A stretch of DNA of 64,000 nt from positions 1,814,929 through 1,878,928 of the forward strand of contig NZ_JACCFW010000001.1 in the NCBI RefSeq assembly GCF_013410455.1, read 5' to 3'. The position numbers and the translations under genes were made by a program. Of this stretch, positions 33,275-39,224 are shown in pieces; the stretch's first letter is position 1, and each line of letters starts with the position of its first letter. This DNA is from Allobranchiibius huperziae. GTDB taxonomy: Bacteria > Actinomycetota > Actinomycetes > Actinomycetales > Dermatophilaceae. The notes beneath the pieces were generated by a model that was given only the letters and a program-made list of their open reading frames with translations, was not told the DNA's origin and made no database searches.

Positions 33275-36200
33275 TCAGCTGGCGGCCTTCGTGCTGGCCT
33301 TGCGCGGCGAGCGGGTGCCTGCGCGACGGGTGGAGGGGCGCGCTGCCGCACTCTGCTTCGCCAGCAACGGCTTGAGGAATCGGCCGGTGTGACTGGCCCG
33401 CACCTCCGCGATCTCCTCCGGTGTGCCGACGGCGACCACATCTCCGCCACGGTTGCCGCCCTCGGGGCCCATGTCGACGATCCAGTCCGCCGACTTGATC
33501 ACGTCGAGGTTGTGCTCGATGACGATGACCGTGTTGCCCTTGTCGACCAGGCCCTGCAGCACGTCGAGCAGCTTGCGGATGTCCTCGAAGTGCAGGCCGG
33601 TGGTCGGCTCGTCGAGCACGTAGATGGTGCGGCCCGTCGAGCGCTTCTGCAGCTCTGAGGCCAGCTTCACCCGCTGCGCCTCGCCACCGGACAGTGTCGG
33701 CGCCGGCTGGCCCAGCCGGACGTAGCCGAGACCGACGTCGACCAGCGTGGTCATGTGCCGGGCGATGGCGGGCACCGACGCGAAGAAGTCCTTGGCCTCC
33801 TCGATCGACATGTCGAGCACCTCGGCGATCGACTTGCCCTTGAAGTGCACCTCGAGCGTCTCGCGGTTGTAGCGCGCCCCGTGGCACACCTCGCACGGCA
33901 CGTAGACGTCGGGCAGGAAGTTCATCTCGATCTTCAGGGTGCCGTCGCCGGTGCACGCCTCGCAGCGACCACCCTTGACGTTGAAGGAGAACCGGCCGGG
34001 CAGGTAGCCGCGGACCTTCGCCTGCTGGGTCTGGGCGAAGAGGCGCCGCACGTGATCGAAGACCCCGGTGTAGGTCGCCGCGTTGCTGCGCGGCGTACGC
34101 CCGATCGGGCTCTGGTCGACGTGCACGACCTTGTCGAGCTGGTCCAGCCCCTCCACCGTGCGGTGCCGCCCGGGCACGTGGCGCGCGCCGTTCAGCTGGT
34201 TGGCCAGCACGTTGTAGAGGATGCCGTTGACCAGCGAGGACTTGCCCGACCCGGACACCCCGGTCACCGCGACCAGGTTGCCCAGCGGGATCGCGACGTC
34301 GACGTTCTTCAGGTTGTGCTCGCGCGCACCGCGTACGACGATCTCGCGACCGTCGTGCGGTCGACGTTCGGTGGGCAGCGGGATCTCCCGCCGACCCGAC
34401 AGGTAGTCGCCGGTGATCGAGTCCTTGTTTGCGAGCAGACCGGCCACCGACCCGGCATGTACGACGTGCCCGCCGTGCTCCCCCGCGCCGGGCCCGATGT
34501 CCACGACGTAGTCAGCCGTGGAGATGGTGTCCTCGTCGTGCTCGACGACGATCAGGGTGTTGCCGAGGTCGCGCAGCCGCGTGAGCGTCTCGATCAGGCG
34601 GTGGTTGTCGCGCTGGTGCAGCCCGATCGACGGCTCGTCGAGCACGTAGAGCACGCCGACCAGGCCCGACCCGATCTGGGTGGCCAACCGGATGCGCTGT
34701 GCCTCGCCGCCGGACAGCGTGGCGGCGGGCCGGTCCAGGGACAGGTAGTCGAGGCCGACGTCGAGCAGGAAGCCCAGCCGCGCGTCGACCTCCTTGATGA
34801 TGCCCTCGGCGATCTGCCGCTCGCGCGGAGAGAAGTCGACACCGGGCAGGAAGTTCGCGGCATCGGAGATGGGCAACGCGCACACATCGGCGATCGACTG
34901 GCCGCCGACGGTGACCGCGAGGGACTCGGGCTTGAGCCGGGCGCCCTTGCAGACCGGGCAGGGCACCTCGCGCATGTAGCCCTCGTAGCGCTCGCGGCTC
35001 CAGTCCGAATCGGTCTCGGAGTGGCGACGCTTCACGAACGGGATGACGCCCTCGAAGCCGGTGGAGTAGCTGCGTTCACGGCCGTACCGGTTGCGGTACT
35101 TCACGTGCACCTGGTGGTTCTGCCCCTCCAGCAGCGCCGTCCGCGCCCGCTCGGGCAGCGCGTGCCACGGCGTGTCGAGGGAGAACTTCAAGTCCTCCGA
35201 GAGCGCGCCGATGACCCGCAGGAAGTAGTCGGCCGAGGTCGAGCCCTGCGCCCAGGGCAGGATCGCGCCCTCGCGGATCGACTTGTCCTCGTCCGGCACG
35301 AGCAGCTCGGGATCGACCTCCAGTTCGGTGCCGATGCCGGTGCATGCCGGGCAGGCGCCGAACGGGCTGTTGAAGGAGAACGAGCGCGGCTCGATCTCGT
35401 CCATCGACAGGGGGTGCTCGTTGGGGCAGGCCATCCGCTCGGAGAACCGGCGCTCGCGCTGCGGGTCGTCCTCGTCGAGGTCGACCATCTCCACGATGAG
35501 GACACCGTCGGCCAGGATCAGCGCGGTCTCGACGGAGTCGGTGAGCCGCTGCTTCGCGGAGGGGTCGCCGCCGCGGGAGACCAGCCGGTCGACGACCACG
35601 TCGATGCTGTGCTTCTTCTGCTTGGCCAGCTTGGGCGGCTCGGACAACGAGACCACGACCCCGTCGACCCGGGCGCGCGAGTAGCCCTTGCCCTGCAGGT
35701 CGCTGAACAGGTCGACGTACTCGCCCTTGCGGGACCGTACGACGGGCGCCAGCACCTGGAACCGCGTGCGGTCGGGCAGCTCCAAGAGCTGGTCGACGAT
35801 GGCCTGCGGCGTCTGGCGGCCGACCGGCTCGCCGCAGACCGGGCAGTGCGGGCGACCGGCTCGCGCGAAGAGGAGGCGCAGGTAGTCGTAGACCTCGGTG
35901 ATCGTGCCGACCGTGGACCGGGGGTTGCGGTTGGTCGACTTCTGGTCGATCGAGACCGCCGGCGACAGGCCCTCGATGAAGTCGACGTCGGGCTTGTCCA
36001 TCTGGCCGAGGAACTGGCGCGCGTACGCCGAGAGCGACTCGACGTAGCGGCGCTGACCCTCGGCGAAGATGGTGTCGAACGCGAGCGAGGACTTACCCGA
36101 GCCGGACAGACCGGTGAAGACCACCAGCGAGTCCCGCGGGATGTCGACCGAGATGTTGCGCAGGTTGTGCTCCCGGGCGCCCTTGACCCGCAGGTGGTCG

Positions 36201-36295
36201 TGACCGCGCACCGGTGGGGCGGGCGCGGCGCTTTGGGAGCTGGGAGAACTGGGTGACGTGACGGAACGGCTCGGTCGGGGGGTCGCACTGGGCAC
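33275..36295 (-). CDS. uvrA: Excinuclease ABC subunit A
   Basis: A 1006-residue ABC-type ATPase that finds DNA damage and loads UvrB. It has two nucleotide-binding sites: Walker A G-L-S-G-S-G-K-S near 62-69 and G-V-S-G-S-G-K-S near 690, each with an LSGGE signature (TLSGGEAQR twice). Zinc modules are visible as [26 protein letters not shown] and the C-terminal C-E-A-C-T-G-D-G with C-E-V-C-H-G. The N-terminal 30 residues are a Ser/Pro-rich extension. The GTG start at 36295 lies six bases after a -10 box, so the transcript is probably leaderless. The C-terminus has a basic Arg/Lys/Ala tail. Confidence 0.97.
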
Positions 36296-36377: not shown

Positions 36378-37043
36378 ATGGCTTACGACGGCAGGACGAC
36401 ACCCGGCAGGCCCGCCCTGGTGCGTGAGCTCGAGGGCGTCACGATCCGCAAGCTCGCGGTCTCCTCGATGGACAACAACGTCTACCTGGTGACCGCCACC
36501 GGATCCGGCGCGTCCGTGCTCGTGGACGCGGCGAACGACTGGCCGGCGATCGAGGCGATGATCCGGGAGAGCGGCGCCCGGGTGGAGGCGATCGTCACCA
36601 CCCACCGGCACGGCGACCACACCGGCGCGCTCGCCGATGCGGCGCGCGCCCTCGGTGCCCGCACGTACGCCGGGGCACCGGACGCCGACCACCTGCCGAT
36701 CGCGGCCGACGTACGCCTCGAGGACGGCGACACGGTGCAGGTCGACGGGCTCTCCCTCGACGTCGCCCTCGTGCGCGGGCACACCCCCGGCTCGGTCGTG
36801 CTGACCTACGCCGACCCGCACGGTCATGACCACGTCTTCAGCGGCGACACCCTCTTTCCCGGGGGTGTCGGTGCGACGAAGAACCACGACGACCAGTCCT
36901 TCCCGCAGCTCATCGACGACGTCGAGCAGCGCATCTTCGCTCGGCACGACGACGACGCGTGGGTCTACCCCGGTCACGGCGACGACACCACCCTCGGCAC
37001 CGAGCGCCCCCACCTGCCCGCGTGGCGGGAGCGCGGATGGTGA
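36378..37043 (+). CDS. MBL-fold metallo-hydrolase (glyoxalase II-like)
   Basis: A 221-residue metallo-beta-lactamase-fold hydrolase. The metal motif is T-H-R-H-G-D-H (75-81), with further ligands in R-G-H-T-P-G-S (about 133-139), S-G-D-T-L-F (about 155-160) and Y-P-G-H-G (about 196-200). This is a complete two-metal set like glyoxalase II and related thioesterases. AAGGAG lies ten bases ahead of the ATG. Its stop is embedded in the start of the NlpC/P60 gene, so the two are coupled. The substrate is unknown. Confidence 0.88.
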   Translation: MAYDGRTTPGRPALVRELEGVTIRKLAVSSMDNNVYLVTATGSGASVLVDAANDWPAIEAMIRESGARVEAIVTTHRHGDHTGALADAARALGARTYAGAPDADHLPIAADVRLEDGDTVQVDGLSLDVALVRGHTPGSVVLTYADPHGHDHVFSGDTLFPGGVGATKNHDDQSFPQLIDDVEQRIFARHDDDAWVYPGHGDDTTLGTERPHLPAWRERGW

Positions 37044-37825
37044 GTGGGCTGGGCGACTCGCTCCGGCCCGTCACCGCGCCAGGTCGTCCTGCCCTCGTGC
37101 GCGTGTCGATCAGCGGGCTCTGGCTCACGGCGACCTCGCCGCGGCCCATCGACGCCCCGCTGCTCGACGCCTCCCCCGACCACGACCGCTGGCTCGCCGC
37201 CATGGACGCCGAGCCGGAGCCGATGGCCGGTCGGCTCGGGCTCGAGGGCCGGCTGGAGACCGAGGTGCTGGCGGGTGAGTCGGTCGAGGTGCACGACCTG
37301 CACGACGACTGGGCGTTCGTGACATGCCCCGAGCAGCCGTCGCACAAGAACCCGCGCGGCTACCCGGGGTATCTGCGAGCGGCCCACCTGGACCTCGGGG
37401 TCTCCGAGTCCGACGGTGCCGGCGATCCTGCGCCCACCGCCGGCGCGACCTCGGTCGACCCGGCCGCGTTCCTCGATGCGGTGCGGGCCCACGCGGGCGT
37501 GTCCTATCTGTGGGCCGGCCTCTCGCCGCACGGGCTGGACTCCTCGGGACTGGTGCACCTCCCGCTGCGCACCCTCGGGGTGCGTTTTCCGCGCGACTGC
37601 TCCGACCAGGCCCGGCACTGCGCCCCTGTCGCACCCGCCGATGCGGCCCCCGGCGACCTCCTCTTCTTCGCGCGTCCCGGATCCGAACCGGACCACGTCG
37701 GCATCCTCACCGCCACCGGCCGGATGCTGCACGTGCCGCAGACCGGACGCGTCGTCGAGGAGGACGTGCCGACGGACCGGGCCGAGACCCTGGTGTGCGC
37801 CGGCCGGATCAGCGCGCTGGGGTGA
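37037..37825 (+). CDS. NlpC/P60-family protein with catalytic Cys replaced by Ser
   Basis: A 262-residue cytoplasmic-looking protein (no signal peptide) with an SH3-like N-terminal half (about 10-120) and a C-terminal NlpC/P60 domain (about 140-262), the layout of YkfC-type gamma-D-glutamyl-L-diamino acid endopeptidases. In those enzymes the nucleophile is Cys in D-C-S-G-L-V. Here the matching motif reads D-S-S-G-L-V, with Ser169 encoded by TCC at 37541-37543. The other active-site positions look kept: His220 (D-H-V-G-I-L) and His232 (L-H-V-P). It is therefore either an inactive relative, a serine-nucleophile variant, or a sequence error (TGC to TCC). ATG 37037 has GGAG upstream; GTG 37040 is an alternative. 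It overlaps both neighbours. Confidence 0.82.
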   Translation: MVSGLGDSLRPVTAPGRPALVRVSISGLWLTATSPRPIDAPLLDASPDHDRWLAAMDAEPEPMAGRLGLEGRLETEVLAGESVEVHDLHDDWAFVTCPEQPSHKNPRGYPGYLRAAHLDLGVSESDGAGDPAPTAGATSVDPAAFLDAVRAHAGVSYLWAGLSPHGLDSSGLVHLPLRTLGVRFPRDCSDQARHCAPVAPADAAPGDLLFFARPGSEPDHVGILTATGRMLHVPQTGRVVEEDVPTDRAETLVCAGRISALG

Positions 37826-38736
37826 GGTTCCCCGTCGGCTACCGGCCGCCCCCGCCCGCCCTCGTCCTCACCGCCGTGGTGTCGGTCCAGTTCGGCGGCG
37901 CCCTGGCCTCCACCCTCGTCCCTACGATCGGTGCCTTCGGGTCGGTCGGCCTGCGTCTGGGATTCGCCGCCGTGCTGCTGTGCGCACTCGGACGTCCAGC
38001 GCTGCGGGGCCGCAGCCGCGCCGACTGGCGGGTGGTGACGGCGTACGCCGCGACGCTGGCCACGATGAACGTCTGCTTCTACGCGGCGATCGCCCATCTG
38101 CCGCTCGGTGTGGCTGTGACCTGCGAGTTCGTCGGCCCGCTCAGCCTGTCCGCCGTCCTGTCGCGGCGCTGGCAGGACGCGGCGGCGGTGGTCTGCGCCG
38201 TCGGCGGTGTGCTCCTCGTGTCCGGCGCGCTGACGACGCCGTGGTCGAAGATGCCGGTGACCGGCGTACTGTTGGCGCTCGCCGCGGGCGCCTGCTGGGC
38301 GGCGTACATCATGGCCTCCGGAGCGACCGGTGCGCGGTTCGCCTCCCTCGACGGGCTGGCGATCGCCCTGGCCATGGGCACCGTGGTCGTGCTCCCGATC
38401 GGCGTATGGCGGGCCGGTGACGCGCTGTTCTCGGGCGAGTCACTGGCCAAGGGCTTCGGGATCGCGCTGCTGTCCTCGGTGCTGCCGTACTCCCTGGAGC
38501 TGCTCGCGCTACGTCGGCTCGCGGCCCACGTCTTCGGGATCCTGATGAGCCTCGAACCCGCTGCAGGTGCACTCGCCGGACTACTCGTGCTGGGCCAGCG
38601 ATTGAGCGCGCCCGAACTGGTCGGGATGGCGCTCGTGGTGCTCGCCAGCGTGATCGTGCTCGGTGCCGCCCGTCGCCCGCGGTCGGGTGAGTCCGACGGT
38701 GGCTCAGGGGTGCCCGAGGGGCTCACCCCGGCCTGA
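37822..38736 (+). CDS. EamA/RhtA-like drug/metabolite transporter
   Basis: A 304-residue ten-helix membrane protein of the DMT superfamily with two EamA repeats (about 12-140 and 150-290). The single-gene arrangement and A-L-R-R-L-A-A-H-V-F-G-I-L-M-S-L-E-P-A in the second repeat resemble RhtA-type amino-acid exporters. The GTG overlaps the NlpC/P60 stop (GTGA), making the last gene of a three-gene coupled unit. If the partner peptidase-like protein handles cell-wall peptides, export of a peptide or amino acid is imaginable, but the substrate is not determined. Confidence 0.88.
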   Translation: MRFPVGYRPPPPALVLTAVVSVQFGGALASTLVPTIGAFGSVGLRLGFAAVLLCALGRPALRGRSRADWRVVTAYAATLATMNVCFYAAIAHLPLGVAVTCEFVGPLSLSAVLSRRWQDAAAVVCAVGGVLLVSGALTTPWSKMPVTGVLLALAAGACWAAYIMASGATGARFASLDGLAIALAMGTVVVLPIGVWRAGDALFSGESLAKGFGIALLSSVLPYSLELLALRRLAAHVFGILMSLEPAAGALAGLLVLGQRLSAPELVGMALVVLASVIVLGAARRPRSGESDGGSGVPEGLTPA

Positions 38737-38751
38737 GGCACGGTCCGCGCC

Positions 38752-39096
38752 TCAGCCGCGCGGGCGCAGGTCGTGGCGCCGCAGCGCGTACCGCTCGAAC
38801 CACAGGGTCATGAAGGGCGGCACGCTGCTCACCAGTCCGAGCAGCGCGGTCCGCGCGTCCCAGCGGCGCGACCTGGCCACCCACGCCAGCGCCACCAGGT
38901 AGCAGATGAAGACGATGCCGTGCACCATCCCGAAGATCTGCACACCGCGGTCGGTGCTCTTCGCGATCCACTTGAAGTACATCCCGATCAGCAGCGCGAG
39001 CCACGACACCGCTTCCAAGGTGGCGATGGCGATGAAGACCTGGGAGGAGAGCTGCGAAGAGGTACGGCGGGCGGGGACGTCGGCTTCAAGTGACAC
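38752..39096 (-). CDS. DUF3817 integral membrane protein
   Basis: A 114-residue membrane protein with three helices (near 22-43, 54-76 and 82-102), matching the DUF3817 family common in actinobacteria and of unknown function. Typical residues include E-A-V-S-W in helix 1, M-V-H-G-I-V-F near helix 2 and P-P-F-M-T-L-W-F-E at the end. The GTG at 39096 is preferred to the GTG at 39117 because a -10 box ends six bases upstream of it. It stands alone, convergent with the EamA gene and divergent from the dehydrogenase operon. Confidence 0.85.
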   Translation of the reverse strand: MSLEADVPARRTSSQLSSQVFIAIATLEAVSWLALLIGMYFKWIAKSTDRGVQIFGMVHGIVFICYLVALAWVARSRRWDARTALLGLVSSVPPFMTLWFERYALRRHDLRPRG

Positions 39097-39102
39097 ACCG
39101 GG

Positions 39103-39108
39103 ACGATA
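39103..39108 (-). promoter_or_regulatory. -10 box for leaderless DUF3817 gene
   Basis: TATCGT on the minus strand ends six bases before the GTG at 39096. The identical hexamer serves the divergent dehydrogenase gene 120 bases away. Confidence 0.5.
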
Positions 39109-39224
39109 GGTGGTCACTCCTCACCACCGGCACGGCGGCCCGGTCGCCGTGCGCGGGCTCGACCGTGGCACAGGTACCCCGACCAAAACCACCTGTCGGC
39201 TGTCTGCGCGGCGGCCGGACGTCC

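Follow-up and report, generated by a model that had tools for sequence, protein, structure and literature searches.

The gene at positions 37037-37825 (+) of the window, by which we mean the whole 64,000-nucleotide stretch of Allobranchiibius huperziae DNA analysed here, encodes a 262-residue YkfC-like protein with an SH3b and an NlpC/P60 domain, in which the catalytic cysteine has been replaced. We call this protein P0001 and its genome G000. The replacement of the cutting residue suggests that P0001 now binds cell-wall fragments instead of cutting them. From sequence comparison, a structural model and gene order, we consider it probable that P0001 is a cytoplasmic pseudo-peptidase that has kept its murein-peptide pocket and descends, along with an EamA exporter, from an ancestor that was active.

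Pfam finds both domains in P0001 (NLPC_P60, 4.7e-16; SH3_16, 4.5e-6). The D-C-S-G motif of the family reads D-S-S-G (GAC-TCC-TCG-GGA), with Ser169 (codon TCC, 37541-37543, +) at the nucleophile position, which corresponds to Cys238 of Bacillus cereus YkfC. The two expected histidines are kept: His220 (37694-37696, +) stands at the place of the catalytic His291 of YkfC, and His232 (37730-37732, +) at the third place of the triad, His303. On both points the initial annotation, which had reported a Cys-to-Ser change next to two retained histidines, was correct. No hydrophobic stretch or signal peptide is evident by eye at the N terminus, and P0001 is therefore probably cytoplasmic.

To place the substitution, we searched 186 genomes of the same taxonomic family at E 1e-25, scoring at most 14 candidates per genome, and found a homologue in 46. 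In an alignment of all 46, the nucleophile is Cys in 43, and the only exceptions are the three Allobranchiibius proteins. The sister species (G002; 84% identical to P0001) has Ser encoded by TCC as in G000, and the third Allobranchiibius genome (G001; 54% identical) has Gly169 encoded by GGC; the codon is TGC in the three Cys-bearing relatives whose codons were read. Conservation of Ser at residue 169, proposed earlier as a check, thus extends to G002 and stops there. The same comparison disposes of the earlier caution that a read or assembly error at 37542 might mimic the change. TCC and TGC do differ by one base, but G002 was assembled separately and has TCC too, which together with GGC in G001 leaves such an error with a negligible chance. 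The loss of the nucleophile is real and, among the genomes searched, belongs to the genus Allobranchiibius.

The three Allobranchiibius proteins are set apart from the others by a branch with a support of 100/100 and a length of 0.61; G001 sits on a long branch of its own (1.12), and the tree program rated its position as unsure. A single base change leads from TGC to either TCC or GGC, which differ from each other by two, so that two separate losses and a single loss followed by drift are both possible. No match was found at E 1e-25 in 140 of the 186 family genomes; when only genomes with a completeness of 90% or more and a contamination of 5% or less are counted, the figure is 122 of 162. 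The gene thus looks dispensable across the family, yet it is present in all three Allobranchiibius genomes. Wider searches, in genomes drawn evenly from larger groups with at most six candidates scored per genome, gave matches in 6 of 396 genomes of the order (E 1e-22), all six from the same family, and in 18 of 394 genomes of the class (E 1e-18). Among 30 more distant loci (L017-L030 and L104-L119) there was no independent loss, all having Cys at the place of residue 169; 29 were read by pairwise alignment, and L114, misplaced there, shows DCSG by eye. Many of these loci are general NlpC/P60 proteins rather than YkfC-like ones, the equivalent of Asp187 being present in 17 of the 29 and, by eye, in L114.

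The closest solved relative of P0001 is B. cereus YkfC (PDB 3h41), both by sequence (1.3e-25) and by fold (Foldseek 6.6e-15; Z 21.7, root-mean-square deviation 2.9, 226 residues aligned). The P0001 model was built with five sequences as input and reached a predicted local distance difference test score (pLDDT) of 73.6 and a predicted template modelling score (pTM) of 0.72; a control model of a Flexivirga homologue reached 65.9 and 0.70. The stretch before the motif was poorly predicted in both (residues 160-167 of P0001; 138-141 of the control, equivalent to 159-162 of P0001), and since the control behaves likewise, we do not take this as a sign of damage. According to the structural study of YkfC, Asp256 and the SH3b residue Tyr118 mark the YkfC-like subfamily (PMC2954226). 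P0001 has both: Asp187 (37595-37597, +) is the equivalent of Asp256, the acidic residue that holds L-Ala by its free N-terminal amine, and Tyr109 (37361-37363, +) that of Tyr118, the SH3b tyrosine marking the S2 site. Each is present in all 46 aligned homologues. P0001 thus shares with the YkfC-like γ-D-Glu-L-diamino-acid endopeptidases (C40) the SH3b-then-NlpC/P60 fold, the Asp256/Tyr118 pair and both His291 and His303, and differs from them at Cys238.

For the pocket, we mapped 12 S1/S2 residues of B. cereus YkfC named in PMC2954226, plus Ser239, through the P0001-3h41 sequence alignment. P0001 and G002 carry the same letter as YkfC at 11 of these 13 places, Tyr157 is kept in P0001, and both proteins also keep His303 while having Ser for Cys238. 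The two differences are Ser257, replaced by Cys188 (codon TGC, 37598-37600, +), and His290, replaced by Asp219 (codon GAC, 37691-37693, +). Cys188 is found in all three Allobranchiibius proteins and in one of the 43 other family homologues. At residue 219, His is present in 40 of those 43, Asp in P0001 and G002, and Gln in G001, which departs further from the YkfC pocket at E83, T84, W228, A229 and S239 (YkfC numbering).

Three Cys-bearing homologues are unusual at the same sites. The G179 homologue L065, on a long branch, has Asp at the places of both His303 and His290 and may be another altered active site. The G005 homologue L084 has Cys both at the nucleophile place and at that of YkfC Ser257, and would represent a natural intermediate state in any relocation of the nucleophile. 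In the G031 homologue L071, from a genome that is 58% complete, Cys replaces the catalytic-site Tyr (YkfC Tyr226).

The loss in P0001 is selective. At 32 positions the 43 other proteins all have one letter (ignoring gaps, in columns with 38 letters or more); P0001 keeps 31 of them, C169 being the sole loss, while G002 keeps 30 and G001 keeps 27. None of the three Allobranchiibius genes has an internal stop codon. Between G000 and G002 the ratio of nonsynonymous to synonymous substitution rates (dN/dS) is 0.295 for the whole gene (Fisher p 2e-9, rounded counts) and 0.265 for the catalytic domain (p 7e-6, rounded counts). As both species share Ser, their divergence is by parsimony later than the loss, which indicates that purifying selection went on afterwards, the catalytic domain included. 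In the linker between SH3b and NlpC (37397-37465 of the window), no constraint is visible (dN/dS about 1.5 over 23 codons, G000 versus G002).

We also compared the divergence of the NlpC domain with that of SH3b in 820 pairs from outside Allobranchiibius that passed a length filter, a number of pairs that corresponds to 41 of the 43 proteins. The catalytic domain is usually the slower one (medians 0.68, 0.75 and 0.88 in the three larger bins). The ratio is 1.47-1.60 in the three Allobranchiibius pairs and reaches at least 1.3 in only 3 of the 820 others, which argues that constraint has shifted away from the catalytic domain. The whole-gene dN/dS values of the listed Cys-bearing pairs span that of G000-G002, and hence a general relaxation is not apparent for these two species. 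In the G001 lineage the catalytic domain has evolved fast, with a dN of 0.51 as compared with 0.12-0.27 in those listed Cys-bearing pairs that have an EamA dN of 0.15-0.20.

The initial annotation had placed the gene in a coupled three-gene unit with overlaps of a few bases, and this is what we see. The first gene (36378-37043, +) encodes a metallo-β-lactamase (MBL)-fold metallo-hydrolase (Pfam Lactamase_B, 9e-18) and shares 7 bases with the NlpC gene; the third (37822-38736, +; GTG start) encodes an EamA/RhtA-like exporter (Pfam EamA, 5.3e-19; PRK10532, 1.3e-51, yet under the cut-off of that model) and shares 4. The divergent gene on the other side (33275-36295, -), a marker of the conserved locus, we take from its sequence, not from a family search, to be uvrA. 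The three genes of the unit lie side by side in 19 of the 46 homologue-bearing genomes, 16 of which have Cys; in 19 further genomes only NlpC and EamA are adjacent, and in 8 neither neighbour was found. Gene ends were extrapolated here from tblastn matches, and part of the missing neighbours reflects contig ends, as in G121, where the contig stops just past the NlpC gene. Since 16 Cys-bearing genomes share the three-gene order, the unit, with a peptidase of the active type, is older than the Cys loss, and its firmest part is the peptidase-exporter pair. A link between the change and the three-gene order is not supported, as all 16 of the other genomes with that order have Cys; the order predates the loss and so reveals no new partnership by itself. 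P0001 might serve the MBL hydrolase or the exporter, as the initial annotation envisaged, and EamA may carry the products or ligands of the peptidase. Directly after the unit lies a small gene (38752-39117, -), presumably of the DUF3817 family, which is found within about 3.5 kb of the unit in several relatives and about 9 kb away in G001.

Based on these findings, we propose the following model. An active Cys-type peptidase would already have stood in a unit with the EamA exporter in the ancestor; in the Allobranchiibius lineage, its nucleophile would have been replaced by Ser or Gly, while the pocket that reads a free N-terminal L-Ala-γ-D-Glu was largely kept in P0001 and G002. These two proteins would then most likely bind murein tri- to pentapeptides without cutting them and could serve as a cytoplasmic buffer or sensor of such peptides, made together with the MBL hydrolase and the EamA exporter. 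We favour a binding pseudo-peptidase, one of the two possibilities raised in the initial annotation, on the strength of a murein-peptide pocket that is still mostly complete, with 11 of 13 residues as in YkfC; this makes binding likely and falls short of proof. As to the presumed lack of activity, the Cys172Ala variant of Chlamydia trachomatis YkfC is reported not to restore growth of Escherichia coli on murein tripeptide (PMC9928106), and about 1% of 2599 NlpC/P60 proteins are reported to be without the Cys/His dyad (PMC2954226).

Several observations weigh against this proposal. When invariance is relaxed to a 95% cut, P0001 also loses P82, A149 and Y209, and the loss amounts to 3 of 32 catalytic-domain positions, as compared with a median of 0 and a maximum of 4 in a leave-one-out control on the 43 others. 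High NlpC/SH3b ratios occur in close Cys-bearing pairs too (1.67 in G029-G074 and 1.76 in G198-G201); as these are two of the three high pairs outside Allobranchiibius, the ratio appears noisy at low divergence. The dN/dS of the NlpC gene between G000 and G002 exceeds that of MBL, EamA and UvrA, although most Cys-bearing pairs likewise have a higher value for NlpC than for MBL and EamA. A stop-free reading frame is weak evidence in GC-rich DNA, where simulated neutral decay left the gene without a stop with a chance of 0.05 to 0.52. Papain-like Cys-to-Ser enzymes are described as able to keep some activity, chiefly with an acidic pocket (PMC10318531), and Asp219 of P0001 is acidic. Finally, the pocket of G001 has changed at E74S, T75S, W159V and S170A (P0001 numbering), so that peptide binding may not have been kept throughout the genus.

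Some of these points fit a relaxed remnant, that is, a peptidase that became useless in the genus, lost its nucleophile and persists through the translationally coupled operon or a minor role of SH3b, with no selection for binding. Such a history would account for the unlike replacements Ser and Gly, each one base from TGC, for the long branches (0.61 to the group, 1.12 to G001), for the fast catalytic domain and further pocket losses of G001, and for the lack of a match in 140 of 186 family genomes at E 1e-25. We regard it as unlikely in view of the purifying selection that continued in G000-G002 once Cys had gone, with p 7e-6 for the catalytic domain, the restriction of the losses of P0001 to Cys among the 32 invariant places, and the stop-free gene in all three genomes. 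The second possibility raised earlier was a true serine variant, in which Ser169 with His220 and His232 would form a slow serine peptidase or amidase, helped by Asp219 beside His220. Ser has been retained in two species across about 57 synonymous differences, along with Tyr157, both histidines and the greater part of the pocket, and both species have Asp219 where 40 of 43 relatives have His. This residue should acidify the pocket, and as papain-like Cys-to-Ser enzymes with a negatively charged site are reported to stay active in some cases (PMC10318531), the idea stays alive; we still judge it distinctly improbable. The third species has Gly169 with Gln219, an Asp219 equivalent occurs in the Cys-bearing G179, YkfC is dead upon active-site Cys-to-Ala replacement, although the variant described was Ala and not Ser (PMC9928106), and the passages of the literature consulted describe no NlpC/P60 serine enzyme.

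A relocated nucleophile would require that Cys188, which lines the D-Glu site of the same pocket, took over the reaction, or that it attacks the α-amide of D-isoglutamine instead of the γ bond, leaving residue 169 free to drift. Apart from the three Allobranchiibius proteins, all of which have Cys188, only 1 of 43 relatives has Cys at this place; YkfC Ser257 is described as contacting both the oxidised Cys238 and the α-carboxylate of D-Glu (PMC2954226), and an early gain of C188 followed by free drift would explain both Ser and Gly at residue 169. The same contacts would place residue 257 on the α-carboxylate side of D-Glu rather than on its scissile side, Cys occupies both places in the G005 homologue, and a classification study describes the papain-like Cys as always at a helix N terminus (PMC10318531); we hold such a relocation to be very improbable. 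Were it true, P0001 would be a papain-like enzyme with its catalytic Cys away from that position.

We next considered the other peptidases of these genomes. An SH3_16 profile search of G000 for a replacement YkfC found a single match, the NlpC gene of the unit itself. G000 has 8 NlpC/P60 domains including that of P0001; of the other 7, P0001 matches 3 over about 100 residues, corresponding to its NlpC half, and 4 were unmatched at E 0.001. M14 peptidases (PF00246) gave no match in the three Allobranchiibius genomes; of the 7 Cys-bearing genomes searched, 6 were likewise without one, which makes this absence uninformative. An LD-carboxypeptidase of family S66 is present in G000 and G002 and absent from G001 and from the Cys-bearing G026, with no clear link to the Cys loss.

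P0001 offers a clean natural case of a cell-wall recycling enzyme that, in the window species, has lost its nucleophile and no other invariant position, and is still in its operon and under selection. Relatives that keep Cys at the same locus allow the states before and after the loss to be compared. Should P0001 bind murein peptides, it would become a candidate for a cytoplasmic protein that senses or buffers wall turnover in Actinomycetota. No YkfC-type protein without its Cys is named in the open-licence literature searched, a scope that leaves its absence in print unproven.

Compared with known systems, P0001 resembles B. cereus YkfC in its SH3b-NlpC/P60 architecture and fold, the Tyr118/Asp256 equivalents, 11 of 13 pocket residues and both histidines; it differs in the missing catalytic Cys, in having Cys for Ser257 and Asp for His290, and in having one SH3b stretch by Pfam within its 262 residues where YkfC has two. 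With Cys-bearing family relatives such as Flexivirga caeni L093 (55% identity) it shares the locus beside uvrA and the MBL-NlpC-EamA order, whereas these relatives keep DCSG. RipD (Rv1566c) of Mycobacterium tuberculosis is likewise an NlpC/P60 protein without nucleophile, so that pseudo-enzymes of this kind are already known; to our knowledge, RipD has no SH3b domain, and P0001 scores far under the cut-off of the RipD model NCBIfam NF033743 (39.8 versus 215 bits). RipD is described as a non-catalytic peptidoglycan binder with the triad Ala83-Ser132-Glu144 and thus, unlike P0001, with a histidine at neither place (PMC12067865). Serine at the papain-like Cys place beside other active-site residues is also described for DUF2272, DUF2145, DUF3750 and menin (PMC10318531). 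Those are other families, while the change in P0001 is limited, within our search, to a single genus whose family otherwise has Cys; in this genus Ser is not conserved through the group but present in two of the three Allobranchiibius species, the third having Gly.
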